Below, piece after piece: positions 15,400 to 48,631 of a stretch of DNA of 50,450 nucleotides. Below the pieces are notes generated by a model. The model was not told the DNA's origin. It made no database searches and saw nothing but the letters and a program-made list of their open reading frames with translations. The DNA comes from Prevotella sp. (GTDB lineage Bacteria; Bacteroidota; Bacteroidia; Bacteroidales; Bacteroidaceae), in contig JAFPTC010000032.1 in NCBI GenBank assembly GCA_017400455.1, forward strand, positions 1 to 50,450, written 5' to 3'. The translations under genes and the position numbers were made by a program. The first letter of the stretch is position 1. Each line of letters starts with the position of its first letter.

Positions 15400-15726
15400 T
15401 TTTTCAACCTGTGCGGTTGCAAATCTGTTTTGTCTCCCGCCAGCCCTCTCTCCGCCCCTGCCATGCTTTTTTCATTCAGAAGCCCCTGTCTGCTGAAACG
15501 GGAGCACTGGAGAAAGGGGGAAAGACACGCGAGAAAAAGGGATAAGACGCTGGGTAATAGGGAAAAAGGTACCGGGTTGCCTGATTCGGGCGGCCGCCCT
15601 CATTAATAAGGGCGGGCGCCCTTATTAATGCGAGCGGGCGGGCTTATAGGTGTGGGCGGGCGCTGAATCCCGTGTTTTATTCAGGCGGTCTAATGTGGCA
15701 TATTTCATTTTTGTATTTGGGCAAAA
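15400..15726 (+). repeat. Structured interspersed repeat, copy A (about 327 bp)
   Basis: This is one of three copies of a long intergenic repeat. Blocks shared with the other copies, in order: TTTTCAACCTG...GCGGTTGCAAATC (shared with copy C only), CCCCTGCCATGC...CAGAAG-CCCTGTCTGC-GAAACGGGAG, GCTGGGTAATAGGGAAAAAG, a central inverted repeat (here ATTAATAAGGGCG / CGCCCTTATTAAT, 15602-15629), a hairpin CTGAAT...ATTCAG (15663-15684), and TCTAATGTGGCATA...GTATTTGGGCAAA. It has no credible ORF. It lies between the convergent NUDIX and tRNA genes. Confidence 0.9.
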
Positions 15727-15750: not shown

Positions 15751-15788
15751 CAAAAGAAAAAGCACTTGCGAGAAACTCACAAGTGCTT
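15751..15788 (-). terminator. Intrinsic terminator of the tRNA gene
   Basis: On the minus strand a 9-bp stem (AAGCACTTG / CAAGTGCTT, 11-base loop) is followed by a T-rich tract, TTTTCTTTT. It lies 11 bases beyond the 3' end of the tRNA. Confidence 0.8.
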
Positions 15789-15799
15789 GACTTTCAGTG

Positions 15800-15873
15800 T
15801 GGACCAGCCAGGGCTTGAACCTGGGACCTCCAGATTATGAGTCTGTTGCTCTAACCAACTGAGCTACAAGTCC
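15800..15873 (-). tRNA. tRNA with CAU anticodon (elongator Met, or Ile2)
   Basis: Read on the minus strand, a 74-base cloverleaf can be drawn. The acceptor is GGACTTG/CTGGTCC with discriminator A, the D arm starts GCTC...GAGC, the anticodon loop is CTCATAA (anticodon CAU), and the T arm is CCAGG-TTCAAGC-CCTGG. The acceptor has a U-U at pair 6-67 and the anticodon stem an A-G at 27-43. CCA is not encoded. The D-arm sequence AGTTGGTTAGAGC favours elongator tRNA-Met, but a lysidine-modified tRNA-Ile cannot be excluded without a covariance model. Confidence 0.9.
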
Positions 15874-15923
15874 GAAAAATGTGGTTGCAAAGGTACGGTT
15901 TCTTTGGCAAATATCCAAATTTT

Positions 15924-15955
15924 TTTGGTGAAAAATAAAAAAAGCAGTAACTTTG
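15924..15955 (+). promoter_or_regulatory. Promoter of ribF
   Basis: TTTG (15924-15927), 20 bases, then TAACTTTG (15948-15955). The ATG follows only 8 bases after the -7 element, so the transcript should be leaderless or nearly so. An earlier in-frame ATG at 15904 lies upstream of the promoter and is unlikely. Confidence 0.75.
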
Positions 15956-15963
15956 CAGGCCAA

Positions 15964-16905
15964 ATGACAACGTTAAGACTGACGGAACATACTGATTTGG
16001 CGGCAGGAAGCGCTGCGACCATCGGTTTTTTCGATGGCGTTCATCGTGGTCATCAGTTTCTCATTCAACAATTGTGCCGCCTAGCATCAGGACGCGGATG
16101 CCCATCGATGGTGATTACCTTCGACCGACATCCGCGTGAGTTGCTGTGTACCGACTGGCGCCCACAGCTACTCACGTCTCTGCAGGAGAAAGAGCAGCTG
16201 CTTGCCCAAACAGGAGTGGATCGGCTCGTGGTGCTGCCCTTTGACCAGAGGATGGCCTCGCTGTCGGCCTACGACTTCATGCGGCAGGTGCTTGGCAAGC
16301 AGCTTGGCGTAAGGCTGCTGCTGACAGGCTATGACAACAGCTTTGGCCATCGCAGCCCCGACAGTCAGGAGGGTTTCGACGACTATGTGGACTATGGCCG
16401 TCAGCTGGGCATTGACGTTGTCTGCGCCACTGGAATCGAGGTTGACGATGACTATGTCAGCTCCTCGCGCATTCGCAAGCTGCTGGCCGATGGCCAGGTG
16501 GCCGAGGCCGTCCGCTGCCTGGGCCGTTACTATCAGCTTCAGGGCGTGGTGGAACATGGTGAGCAGCAAGGACGCCAGATAGGCTTCCCCACGGCCAACC
16601 TGCGGTTGAAGTTCGACGATGCCGTGGTGCCTCGCCATGGTGTCTACGCCGTACGCATTCAGCTGGGCTCTACCCTGCTGACGGGCATGACGAACATTGG
16701 CACTCGCCCGACCTTTGACGGTCATCGGCTGACGATAGAAACCCACATCTTCGATTTCTCCAACGACATCTATGGCCAGCCCCTGAGCATAGAGTTTGTG
16801 GAACGCCTGCGTGATGAACAGGCGTTCAGCACTGTTGACGCCCTGGCCCACCAGATGGCGCTCGACGCCGAACAAGCCAAACAAATATTATCCCACACGA
16901 TATGA
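15964..16905 (+). CDS. ribF: Bifunctional riboflavin kinase / FAD synthetase
   Basis: This 313-residue protein has both expected halves. The N-terminal nucleotidyltransferase has TIGFFDGVHRGHQFLIQQL, a VLPFDQRMASLSAYDF block, LTGYDNSFGHRS and SSSRIRKLL. The riboflavin kinase domain starts at about residue 185 (GRYYQLQGVVEHG) and has IGFPTANL, GVYAVRI and TNIGTRPTF. It makes FMN and FAD from riboflavin in the cytoplasm. The start at 15964 matches the usual family N-terminus just before the first strand. The stop overlaps the next start (ATGA, 4 bases), so ribF and the CPBP gene are translationally coupled. Confidence 0.95.
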   Translation: MTTLRLTEHTDLAAGSAATIGFFDGVHRGHQFLIQQLCRLASGRGCPSMVITFDRHPRELLCTDWRPQLLTSLQEKEQLLAQTGVDRLVVLPFDQRMASLSAYDFMRQVLGKQLGVRLLLTGYDNSFGHRSPDSQEGFDDYVDYGRQLGIDVVCATGIEVDDDYVSSSRIRKLLADGQVAEAVRCLGRYYQLQGVVEHGEQQGRQIGFPTANLRLKFDDAVVPRHGVYAVRIQLGSTLLTGMTNIGTRPTFDGHRLTIETHIFDFSNDIYGQPLSIEFVERLRDEQAFSTVDALAHQMALDAEQAKQILSHTI

Positions 16906-31466: not shown

Positions 31467-31739
31467 CCGCCCCTGCCATGCTTTTTCACTCAGAAGACCC
31501 TGTCTGCCGAAACGGGAGAAAGGGAAAAAGGGAAAAAGGCACTGGGTAATAGGGAAAAGGCACTGGGTAATAGGGAAAAGGCACTGGGTAATAGGGAAAA
31601 AGGTACTGGTTTGCCAGATTCGGGCGGCCGCTCTCATTAATAAGGGCGGCCGCCCTTATTAATGAGAGCGGCCGGTCTTATATGTGTGGGCGTGCGCTGA
31701 ATCCCGAGTTTTATTCAGTCGGTCTTATGTGGCTTATTT
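31467..31739 (+). repeat. Structured interspersed repeat, copy B, with 50-bp perfect palindrome
   Basis: It shares with copies A and C the CCCCTGCCATGC...GAAACGGGAG block, the GGTAATAGGGAAAAAGGTAC block, the CTGAAT...ATTCAG hairpin and the TCTTATGTGGC end. Copy B lacks the 5' GCGGTTGCAAATC block. It contains three tandem units of a 21-base repeat (AAGGCACTGGGTAATAGGGA, about 31540-31603). Its core, 31625-31674, is a perfect 50-bp palindrome (left arm begins CGGCCGCTCTCATTAATAAG). Its 3' end runs over the comEC stop codon (31734-31736). Confidence 0.9.
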
Positions 31740-33113
31740 GGCGGCGGATTTCAGGCTCAGGATGAAGAGGAGCACGCCTATGCAGACATAGGCCATGACC
31801 ACCTGCAGGGGCGAGGGGTGGAGGCCGCTGATGCTGGCCAGAGGCAGGCGCGACTCCCACTCAAGGAAAGCGTTGAGCACCTCCACCACCCACAGCAGCG
31901 CGCCGCCCAGGGCGGGCACCACCAGCACCAGCACGGCGCCGTGGAGGATGACCGTGGCCAGGGGGATGACCACCAGGTTGGTGAGCAGGAACCACACGGG
32001 CAGCTGGCCAAAATAATAGGCCACCAAGGGCGCCGTGCCCAGCTGGGCCGAGAACGAGACGGCCGCCAGGTCGTAGACCCACTTCACGGGCCAGTGCTCC
32101 ATGAGCCAGCGGGTGGAGATGAGGCCCTTAAAGAAGGGGTCGAAGAGGAGGATGGCCAGCATGGCCATGAACGACAGCTGGAAACCCACGTCGAAGAGCG
32201 AGGCGGGGCTGACCAAGAGCATGACCAGGGCCGTGAAGCTGAGCACGCCCAGCGACGAGCGCCGACGGCCGCCAAGCGAGAAGAGGGCATAGACGGTGAG
32301 CATGGTGGCGGCTCGCACCACGCTGACCGACAGGCCCGTGAGCAGGGCGTAGGCCCAGATGGCCAGCACCACCAGCACCTGGGTGAGCCACCAGCGGCGG
32401 CGGCCCAGCGTGAGGCGCGACAGCAGCAGGTAGATGATGCTCAGGTGCAGTCCGCTGAGGGCCAGCACGTGGGAGGCGCCGCTGCTGCTGTAGGTCTGGC
32501 GCAGGTCTCGCGTCAGGGCCGACTTGTCGCCCAGCACCATGGCCGCCAGCACGGCCTGCGCCTCGTCGTCGCCCTCCATGCTGCGATAGCGCTCCAGCAG
32601 CCTGCCGCGCCACTGCAAGGCCCTGATGCGCAGTCGCTGAAGGCTCGTCGCGTGGTTGAAGGCATCGCCGCCCGGGCGCCAGTCGCTGCGGCCAATGAAC
32701 TGGCCGTCGTGGATGCGGACCATCAGGTTCTGGCCCACGTGCAGCTGCTGGCTGCGCTCGTCGCTCCACAGGTAGCAGCGGCGGCGTTCGCCCGTGGCGG
32801 GCAGCAGCAACTCTGCCATAATGGTCTTGGGCCGCTGCGCCGGAGCCGACGCCACCACCGCCTCGGTCCACGTGCCGTCGGCCACGCGGGGCTCGTCGGC
32901 TGGCGACAGCAGCATGCCTAACAGCAGGAAGCCCGCCCCAAGGGCCGCGCTCTGCCATAAGGGCCACCGCCCCAGGAAGAGGGCCGCCACAATGGCCCCC
33001 GCCAGCAGGCAAAGCACCCCCACGGCGCTCAGCGGCATGCCCACGGCAATGCCCGCTGCCAAGCTGGCGGCCGGCAGCAGCAATGGGGCATGGAACGGAT
33101 GTTGGTGCATCAT
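31734..33113 (-). CDS. comEC: ComEC/Rec2-type DNA channel protein, lacking the metallo-beta-lactamase domain
   Basis: This 459-residue polytopic membrane protein has the ComEC core: an N-terminal OB-like region (about 80-150), then the competence domain with the conserved ASHVLALSGLHLSI (about 220) and LLTGLSVSVVRAATMLTVYAL (about 260) segments, and several membrane helices. ComEC carries single-stranded DNA across the inner membrane during natural transformation. The C-terminal metallo-beta-lactamase-like domain of full-length (about 700-750 residue) ComEC is absent; short forms are seen in Bacteroidetes. The stop codon lies inside the end of structured repeat copy B. An array of promoter-like repeats stands in front of it. 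Confidence 0.85.
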   Translation of the reverse strand: MMHQHPFHAPLLLPAASLAAGIAVGMPLSAVGVLCLLAGAIVAALFLGRWPLWQSAALGAGFLLLGMLLSPADEPRVADGTWTEAVVASAPAQRPKTIMAELLLPATGERRRCYLWSDERSQQLHVGQNLMVRIHDGQFIGRSDWRPGGDAFNHATSLQRLRIRALQWRGRLLERYRSMEGDDEAQAVLAAMVLGDKSALTRDLRQTYSSSGASHVLALSGLHLSIIYLLLSRLTLGRRRWWLTQVLVVLAIWAYALLTGLSVSVVRAATMLTVYALFSLGGRRRSSLGVLSFTALVMLLVSPASLFDVGFQLSFMAMLAILLFDPFFKGLISTRWLMEHWPVKWVYDLAAVSFSAQLGTAPLVAYYFGQLPVWFLLTNLVVIPLATVILHGAVLVLVVPALGGALLWVVEVLNAFLEWESRLPLASISGLHPSPLQVVMAYVCIGVLLFILSLKSAAK

Positions 33114-33132
33114 GGCGTAGAAAAAGTAGTGG

Positions 33133-33163
33133 CAAAGTTACGAAAAAACGAGAGTAAAACAAA
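33133..33163 (-). promoter_or_regulatory. comEC promoter within a repeated promoter cassette
   Basis: On the minus strand: TTTG (33160-33163), 19 bases, then TAACTTTG (33133-33140), 19 bases before the ATG. The intervening sequence CTCTCGTTTTTTCG is the same as in the kduI promoter. Confidence 0.8.
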
Positions 33164-33360
33164 AGAAATTTATTTCTTTTTTTTGCCGAGTGCCGAGGAG
33201 TTTCCTTGAGCAAAGCGAAAAACTTCGCGCTGTAAGCGCAAAGTTACGGAAAAACGAGAGAAATGCAAAAGAAAATCGAGATTTTCTTTTCATTTGCGAG
33301 TGCCAAGTAAGTTCGGCGAAGCCAAAGTTACGCAAAAACGAGAGAAATGCAAAAGATTTT
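33133..33360 (-). repeat. Three tandem promoter-like repeat units upstream of comEC
   Basis: Three minus-strand copies of a TTTTG...CTCTCGTTTTT-CGTAACTTTG unit end at about 33133, 33240 and 33324. The first and third keep the exact 19-base -33/-7 spacing; the second has an extra T (TAACTTTTG). A/T-rich hairpins of the AAAAGAAAT...ATTTCTTTT kind lie between. No gene was found in 33114-33441. Confidence 0.75.
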
Positions 33361-42227: not shown

Positions 42228-42549
42228 TTCATAAGAAAAAGAGCAGAAGATGCTATCTCACGACAGTATCTCCTGCCAAGAACTTATATAATAATACACG
42301 TACTATCTGTCTGTACACACCTCGCCCCTGCTGTACCCTGAATACTGGCGCACAGCCGCAAAGCGGCATGACACAACAAGCTGACGACCTTGCGTCGCTA
42401 ATGCTTCTCATCTTTTGCTATTGCTTTTCTAACGTCTGCGGCACCTTGTTCCCGAGGCTGTCGCGTTGTTGTTCCGACTGACAGGTTTGGCCTATGGCCT
42501 AACCTTGTCTGCGCACGGCAAATTCCAAGCAAGCTTGGCCTTTGCGTTC
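42228..42549 (-). other. Long leader between the cobalamin aptamer and the receptor gene
   Basis: About 320 bases with no gene. It contains a GGTTAGGCC/GGCCAAACC hairpin (about 42482-42502) and a GCCGC/GCGGC hairpin (about 42355-42367). Either could belong to the riboswitch expression platform; I could not work out the alternative pairing. Confidence 0.5.
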
Positions 42550-42735
42550 GCTTTGGCAGGTTTCCTGGCTCTCTCCGGAAAGTCCGCCTTCCCAGCAACA
42601 CGATGCTTTCACCTTGTTGTCAGTGGCGTTTGTGGGCTTCCCATAATGGAGATGACAGTAGCGGGCACTGCTCAGGACTTTCACCTGATTCCCTCTCTGC
42701 CCCGGGCCGCTTTGGCGCGGGGCATCACCAAATCG
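42550..42735 (-). promoter_or_regulatory. Cobalamin riboswitch (aptamer)
   Basis: On the minus strand the classic blocks appear in order: GGTGATGCC, GAATCAGGTGAAAGTCCTG, AGCAGTGCCCGCTACTGT, GAAGCCCAC, GCCACTGAC, GGGAAGGCGG and the B12 box AGCCAGGAAACCTGCC (42555-42570). Order, spacing and sequence are those of an adenosylcobalamin-class aptamer. It precedes the TonB receptor and CbiK-like lipoprotein genes and is expected to repress them when bound to B12. Confidence 0.95.
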
Positions 42736-42739
42736 TGTG

Positions 42740-42747
42740 CAAAGGTA
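42740..42747 (-). promoter_or_regulatory. -7 element for the riboswitch transcript
   Basis: Minus-strand TACCTTTG just upstream of the aptamer. A clear -33 TTTG was not identified. Confidence 0.55.
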
Positions 42748-48053: not shown

Positions 48054-48122
48054 GGGGAGGCTCCGCAGCATCATGGGAGGCCGAGTTTTGAAAAAATCTC
48101 ACGTGAGATTTTTTCAAAACTC
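48054..48122. repeat. Palindromic repeat (40-bp palindrome plus 29-bp flank), copy 2, inverted
   Basis: 48083-48122 is the same perfect 40-bp palindrome as at 8408-8447. The 29 bases on its left (48054-48082) are the exact reverse complement of 8448-8476. TTGCAC-type short repeats lie just upstream (about 48005-48038), as at the first copy. Confidence 0.9.
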
Positions 48123-48131
48123 GCCTTCCTT

Positions 48132-48449
48132 TTTTTTCGACCTGTACTCGCGGTTGCAAATCGCGTACTCTCTCCCCTGCCCTGCCCTGCTTTTTCACTC
48201 AGAAGACCCTGTCTGCTGAAACGGGAGCACTGGACAAAAGGGGAAAAGGCACGGGAGAAAAAGGGAAAAGGCGCTGGGTAACAGGGAAAAAGGTACCGGG
48301 TTGCCCGATAAGGGCGCCCGCCCGCAATGATAAGGGCGGCCGCCCTTATAACTGCGAGCGGGCGGGCTTATAGGTGTGGGCGGCCGCTGAATTCCGAGTT
48401 TTATTCAGTCGGTCTAACGTGGCATAGTTCATTTTGTATTTGGGCAAAA
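48132..48449 (+). repeat. Structured interspersed repeat, copy C (about 318 bp)
   Basis: It shares with copy A both ends (TTCGACCTGT...GCGGTTGCAAATC and GTATTTGGGCAAAA) and the internal blocks. The central structure is an inner stem ATAAGGGCGG/CCGCCCTTAT (48330-48349) inside an outer stem GCCCGCCCGC (48316-48325) / GCGGGCGGGC (48358-48367). The outer stem sequence differs from that of copy B but still pairs. It lies between GH3 and kduI; 47964-48631 contains no gene. Confidence 0.9.
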
Positions 48450-48500
48450 GTACGAAATAATATGAAATTATCTTCTGAAATTGTTCGTTTGTTACAACCT

Positions 48501-48600
48501 TTTTTCGTAACTTTGGCTTCGCCGAAGTTACTCGGCACTTGGAAATGCAAAAGAAAATCACGCTTTTCTTTTGCATTTCTCTCGTTTTTTCGTAACTTTG
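48501..48600 (+). repeat. Promoter-bearing repeat upstream of kduI (two units)
   Basis: Two CGTAACTTTG ends (48506-48515 and 48591-48600). The interval holds a GGCTTCGCCGAAGTTACTCG block, also seen reversed at about 33305-33323, and an 11-bp hairpin GCAAAAGAAAA/TTTTCTTTTGC. It is the same family as the comEC upstream array in opposite orientation. Confidence 0.75.
48570..48600 (+). promoter_or_regulatory. Promoter of kduI
   Basis: TTTG (48570-48573), 19 bases, then TAACTTTG (48593-48600); 31 bases before the ATG. The spacer contains CTCTCGTTTTTTCG as in the comEC promoter. Confidence 0.8.
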
Positions 48601-48631
48601 CAGCCAGACTAATCGAACAAAACGTAAAGTA

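Follow-up and report, generated by a model that had tools for sequence, protein, structure and literature searches.

REP sequences are dispersed palindromic repeats related to the repeats found beside the gene of RAYT, a Y1 nuclease. In plasmid centromeres such as StbA-stbDR and ParR-parC, an array of direct repeats adjoins a gene whose product binds DNA, while an integron cassette consists of a gene and attC, a structured, sequence-variable site. The intergenic repeats considered here, which lie in a 50,450-nucleotide stretch of a Prevotella sp. genome (the window; GenBank assembly GCA_017400455.1, contig JAFPTC010000032.1), recall each of these systems in part. As in REP/RAYT, palindromic repeats scattered over the genome have relatives next to a single protein gene, but that gene encodes HU-HIG (PF18291) rather than RAYT, so that the original prediction of a possible long REP-like element holds as an analogy and fails in the identity of the gene. 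As in the plasmid centromeres, direct repeats accompany a gene for a DNA-binding protein; however, the HU-HIG arrays are chromosomal and 3' of the gene, and an HU-HIG query had no match in the plasmid collection. The HU-HIG unit shares its layout with the integron cassette, in that a structured site of variable sequence comes after the gene, although in the HU-HIG unit this site is a period-22 array.

The nearest described element found is BrickBuilt, a MITE of Porphyromonas gingivalis that, in the available text of its report, is intergenic, has 19 copies in one strain and occurs also in P. gulae (PMC4596501). The same text describes a leader and a tail flanking a 23-nt direct tandem repeat that is predicted to fold, ends that are often truncated, ISPg1-like terminal inverted repeats and, for some sites, target duplications (PMC4596501). 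As far as that text allows a comparison, the Prevotella arrays are likewise intergenic, present in many copies and made of direct tandem repeats, but differ in having a 22-bp period and a remnant of the HU-HIG gene start, and no such ends were found. Two features of the MITE type are present in the Prevotella arrays, namely many non-coding copies (29 places) and internal deletion of a coding unit (13 of 25 aligned copies).

A 2017 paper by Burroughs and colleagues on clades of the HU superfamily reportedly predicts a role against mobile elements, which is taken here as a lead only. Pfam describes PF18291 as HU fused to a winged helix-turn-helix, Ig or glycine-rich motif, and the accessible part of one paper names HU-HIG in a gene table and gives no tested function there (PMC11035120). 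In the open-licence PMC literature, no paper was found on a Prevotella element of this sort, nor any description of its link to HU-HIG, of a 22-bp period across HU-HIG paralogs or of co-divergence.

Anatomy of the Arrays in the Window

Three homologous copies of about 300 bp, predicted originally to share one orientation, were borne out by reading and alignment (Table 1): copies A, B and C are collinear, lie in one orientation and have a mean column identity of 80%. Each matches R1, a sequence-only model of the core (15539-15679, 31573-31713 and 48263-48403, E <= 1e-38), by construction, as all three went into building the model. Along a copy, purine-rich units of 21-23 bp (approximately GGGRAAAAGGYACTGnGTAACA) are followed by four 12+10-bp units and then by TGAATTCCGAGTTTTATTCAG. 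Each of the four units joins a 12-mer close to GRGCGNNCGNNC to a 10-mer close to TTATnnnnnn, and the units have a palindromic core. The boxes of copy A are separated by 10-bp AT-rich spacers, which gives 22-bp steps, a period that was tested on gene-linked arrays (below); the lag-22 z is 8.4 in copy B (piece 31501-31720) and 8.8 in copy C (piece 48151-48370). The purine-rich units of copy B are a local expansion, and its right end extends to the stop codon (31734-31736) of a convergent ORF (31734-33113).

Table 1. Features of the three array copies in the window. The minus strand denotes the sense of the ancestral HU-HIG gene.
Feature	Position	Strand	Basis
Copy A, solo array	15400..15726	-	read, aligned, R1 match
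Copy A, four 12-mer boxes (15588-15599, 15610-15621, 15632-15643, 15654-15665)	15588..15665	-	read from sequence
Copy A, remnant of the first six HU-HIG codons	15684..15701	-	3/18 mismatches to ATGCCACGTAAGACCGAC
Copy B, solo array	31467..31739	-	read, aligned
Copy B, three near-identical purine-rich units of 21-22 bp, GGGAAAAGGCACTGGGTAATA	31530..31593	-	read, alignments
Copy B, four 12-mer boxes in 22-bp steps	31622..31699	-	read from sequence
Copy B, HU-HIG start remnant	31718..31735	-	2/18 mismatches
Copy C, solo array	48132..48449	-	read, aligned, R1 match
Copy C, four 12-mer boxes (48312-48323, 48334-48345, 48356-48367, 48378-48389)	48312..48389	-	read from sequence
Copy C, HU-HIG start remnant ATGCCACGTTAGACCGAC	48408..48425	-	1/18 mismatches
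Copy C, stretch like the region upstream of HU-HIG start codons	48426..48466	-	by-eye comparison

The perfect 50-bp palindrome announced for copy B was found at 31625-31674, as a self-match in blastn, and the outer arms of copies B and C differ as described. The core, however, had been taken for an inverted repeat, whereas the constant feature is a tandem array with a 22-bp period; divergent copies in genomes G006 and G007 show that it is the register, rather than the palindrome, that is kept, and a palindromic unit was present at p < 0.05 in 28 of 56 arrays, i.e. half. Neither the direct period nor the HU-HIG remnant at the right end had been part of the original prediction.

Copies in This Genome and in Relatives

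It had been proposed to search the genome for further copies, and these occur at 29 distinct places, far above chance (blastn with copy B, E <= 1e-3, 58 rows reduced by hand), in a draft assembly of 2.54 Mb in 160 contigs that is 71% complete. Twenty-five of the places were aligned (C140, C79, C51 and C64 were left out). A DNA search of 40 genomes, the own genome included, returned that genome and weak matches in two others. The exact central palindrome had one match in the genome collection, in Prevotella sp. RUI566, which carries one array copy; this genome is G226, as contig and coordinates agree, and was counted as belonging to the same genus. With R1, 54 of the 299 genomes of the genus proved to carry arrays, G226 and the own genome among them, and copy counts in the other genomes rest on the best ten scored candidates per genome.

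One contig of the own genome (C119, with locus L012) shares 95.5% identity with RUI566 across 3 kb, well above the 64-87% of the long matches between the window and RUI566, so that its array copy may sit on a mis-binned contig, recent transfer being the alternative. Another contig (C139, loci L021 and L027) carries two array copies about 1.2 kb apart that have left flanking letters in common, and one of them ends at the palindrome centre.

Set against the refuting outcomes named in the original prediction, the picture is mixed, in that further copies exist, covariation exceeds background only slightly (below) and a match to a named element family was not found. An Rfam scan of the whole window at gathering scores gave nothing over the copies, a lax scan of copy C gave only matches far under gathering scores, and no Rfam family fits. 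Phage, plasmid and viral origin were without a DNA match, and a search of viral contigs returned no HU-HIG relative; among phages, an HU-HIG query had one match, 22.8% identical.

Linkage to HU-HIG Genes and the 22-bp Period

In many of the genomes with R1 arrays, the array adjoins the stop codon of one gene that reads towards it. Its product, a protein of about 210 aa with an HU-like domain, is HU-HIG (Pfam PF18291, E 1.2e-15), and Pfam finds only HU-HIG there. An R1 array lies near the gene (E <= 0.005) at 27 of the 30 loci retrieved for the nearest HU-HIG relatives, mostly right at the stop codon. A protein search found an HU-HIG homolog at E <= 1e-20 in 84 of the 299 genomes of the genus, made up of 48 of the 54 array genomes versus 36 of the 245 array-free ones (Fisher p 7e-26). 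One close HU-HIG gene was found in the own assembly, at 71% completeness, and its array (C126) is the gene-linked one. Some Bacteroidales have many PF18291 proteins, with up to 21 matches, ordinary HU genes included, in one of 60 genomes searched. A search by sequence for a solved structure of an HU-HIG relative returned none.

The period was examined in the 3' flanks of 50 HU-HIG loci of the same genus, 30 of them closer and 20 more distant, of which L101 and L131 were left out because the flank was too short. Lag-22 z exceeded 3 in 47 of the remaining 48 flanks, and lag 22 was the top of lags 5-59 in 43 of them, a count that dinucleotide shuffles also gave (43/48). Because R1 detects just one of the 20 distant loci while the period is still there, the sequence has changed and the period has not. 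Values above 3 were rare in the controls: 1 of 50 5' flanks, 1 of 44 regions 400 bp further 3', and none of 19 3' flanks of short HU-like genes from other genera, which were taken as ordinary HU by length (3 of 22 were left out, the match lying at a contig end). Three of 112 window pieces exceeded 3, namely copy B, copy C and 15751-15970, a piece beside copy A that contains a tRNA (z 3.2). Among additional PF18291 hits, four of them in the own genome and the rest in other genera, z was above 3 in 7 of 39 cases (one of 40 was dropped, with a flank under 200 bases), and the own four were all negative.

In other Bacteroidales genera, seven loci (L224, L203, L207, L202, L221, L222 and L220) carry HU-HIG genes with 22-bp-period 3' arrays, the array of L224 having the core GTATATAC. 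At L098 (G114:C43) the purine-unit part is expanded, and the top lag of the flank is 42 bp.

Co-divergence of Array and Protein

Similarity between array units follows the identity of the linked proteins (Mantel r 0.677, 0 of 2000 permutations) across 46 arrays, L101, L130, L131 and L132 being left out. Unit similarity between arrays was 0.54 at 80-100% protein identity, 0.48 at 60-80%, 0.39 at 50-60%, 0.37 at 40-50% and 0.34 at 20-40%. Units inside one array have a mean similarity of 0.52; for 28 of 46 arrays this internal similarity exceeds that to every array of a protein less than 60% identical, even though the best shift was allowed in that comparison. Some low values come from arrays whose sampled piece missed the register, and they enter uncorrected. 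The partial r was 0.53 for the C-terminal half of the protein versus 0.31 for the HU half (39 of 46 arrays, 7 left out). That the array changes together with the protein suggests that the two act as a pair; co-divergence is, however, also to be expected from nothing more than linkage and shared ancestry.

Solo arrays were also compared with the gene-linked array resident in their genome. The resident array ranked 1 of 28 for 15 of 38 solo arrays, in the top three for 30 and eighth or lower for 8, although copies of one genome are related and these ranks are thus not independent; 4 of 42 solo arrays had no resident array available for comparison and were dropped, and 15 of the 25 own copies were used.

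Pairing and Folding

That sequence changes while pairing is kept, as originally proposed, is true of copies B and C, but many other copies break the outer palindrome pairs (e.g. in 22, 20 and 14 of 25 copies), which leaves weak support overall. In 25 aligned copies (24 from the own genome, one from G007), the 25-pair palindrome had 80.5% of cells paired versus 78.9% in shuffles (0 of 500 as high), 17 double-changed cells versus 11.8 (1/500) and 6 double-changed pairs versus 5.2 (150/500), a slight excess of covariation of the kind that related sequences may show over shuffles without any structure. Sliding the partner by +3 gave an equally high covariation score (0.055 versus 0.053), and RNAalifold chose a different fold with a covariation term of 0.03. 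The second hairpin (CTGAAT/ATTCAG), said to be kept in all copies, keeps its six pairs in 18 to 24 of 25.

The 48 gene-linked arrays (110 nt) fold better than their shuffles, with a z of -3.65 in the sense and -3.32 in the antisense direction (Wilcoxon p 0.16), compared with -0.21 and -0.13 for a control inside the gene. Equal folding on both strands fits DNA dyads and does not favour RNA. A structured RNA family, one of the options raised at the outset, is accordingly not favoured, given the weak covariation, the lack of an Rfam match and folding without strand bias.

Origin of the Dispersed Copies

On the minus strand, the copies have ATGCCACGTAAGACCGAC-TGAATAAAACTCGG as their right end, in which the first six HU-HIG codons (MPRKTD) are joined to the array start, and some copies run on into a stretch resembling the HU-HIG upstream region (TTTGGATTCTTCC...). 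In 13 of 25 copies the start remnant departs from the HU-HIG start at no more than 4 of its 18 letters, and in C85 all 18 are intact. The 12 copies without a strict remnant include C126, the gene-linked array, as well as C77, C87 and C138, in which altered remnants are recognisable by reading; the remainder are shorter or lack it. Other deletion derivatives, with different internal deletions, occur in other genomes (L159, L141 and L261). The dispersed copies, judged from these joints, look like internal-deletion derivatives of a unit of HU-HIG gene and array, and because at least 13 own copies have one common deletion form, they multiplied after gene loss.

Of the options first considered, a non-autonomous mobile element fits best, as a deletion derivative amplified later, while the ends expected of one were not found. 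No terminal inverted repeats were seen when the 25 aligned copies were read and the ends of 11 were compared with shuffles, of which 16 of 300 scored as high in the best case, and the search for target duplications and clean empty sites established none, the copy ends being ragged. In G268 (87% identical), both neighbour genes of copy C are kept and the array is absent, with about 2.7 kb of other sequence between them.

Interpretation and Alternatives

The repeats are probably solo binding-site arrays of an HU-HIG protein that have spread in a MITE-like manner. A complete unit comprises the HU-HIG gene and, from its stop codon on, an array of four palindromic-core units followed by several purine-rich units. 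A protein dimer is predicted to bind each 22-bp unit, so that in-phase units might assemble a multi-protein DNA complex, and protein and array would co-evolve. On this reading, one unit in this genome lost its ORF by a deletion that spared the first six codons, probably between the short direct repeats GGAATARAA, after which the gene-less form reached many intergenic sites, where the resident HU-HIG protein presumably continues to bind the solo arrays in trans. Its cellular role might be site marking or nucleoid organisation, or the unit may be a hitchhiking element.

Several observations could be read differently. Arrays begin at the HU-HIG stop codon and fold strongly (z about -3.6), and 8 of 46 HU-HIG genes start 2-27 bp after a long co-directional ORF, as might be expected if the array were a conserved element in the 3' untranslated region of HU-HIG mRNA, such as a terminator, stability element or small RNA, that was reused behind other genes. 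In other genomes, moreover, 18 of the 36 solo arrays that were retrieved have a gene that reads towards them and stops no more than 35 bp off, and none has a gene reading away at that distance. These 18 include orthologous sites (rnc four times) and are thus not independent, and in the own genome the right-hand neighbours, chosen like the others as ORFs by length and without a gene caller, number 11 towards and 13 away. As folding has no strand preference, covariation is weak or near zero, and a hairpin does not need the direct-repeat likeness of all four units, an RNA element is considered unlikely. The array might instead be internal filler of a non-autonomous transposon with the HU-HIG gene as its passenger. 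The dispersed, gene-less and internally deleted copies, amplified after the deletion, agree with this, as do the many 5' contexts of HU-HIG units (39 clusters among 46 loci), from which gene and array seem to relocate together; yet the part that is conserved and co-diverges with the protein is the array and not the ends, where neither inverted repeats nor a target duplication were found, and no transposase whose ends would match the copies is known here. A plain transposon of this kind is considered quite improbable. Least probable is that the solo copies are pseudogene remains of old duplications in a decaying HU-HIG gene family. Broken HU-HIG copies do occur, some of them beside arrays (internal stops in G236:C42 and G049:C6, split matches in G105, G148 and G279), but the at least 13 own copies of a single deletion form multiplied once the gene was lost, so that decay is insufficient for this genome, although it may hold for single copies elsewhere.

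If the repeats are indeed binding-site arrays, a broader proposal can be put forward tentatively, with rather less than even confidence: Bacteroidales HU-HIG proteins and their 3' arrays might belong to a large family of protein-DNA address pairs that is diversifying, in which each protein would read its own 22-bp palindromic unit, specificities would shift jointly in the C-terminal domain and in all units, and gene-less arrays would let one protein mark or organise tens of sites. A co-diverging array beside the gene supplies a predicted target sequence for each PF18291 protein, which renders binding, specificity and role directly testable, and the HU-HIG link explains a class of Prevotella intergenic repeats without an Rfam name.

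Other Elements in the Window

A second repeat with dispersed copies lies at 48490-48610 and at about 33130-33260; it looks like a promoter, is palindromic in part (CGTAACTTTGGCTTCGCCGAAGTTACTCGGCACTTGGAAATGCAAAAG...) and has many matches in RUI566. A third repeat, at 48090-48115, contains the palindrome AATCTCACGTGAGATT or close variants of it and also adjoins the array copies C13C, C23, C6, C85, C121 and C138. The minus strand carries a cobalamin riboswitch (Rfam RF00174) at 42538-42747.
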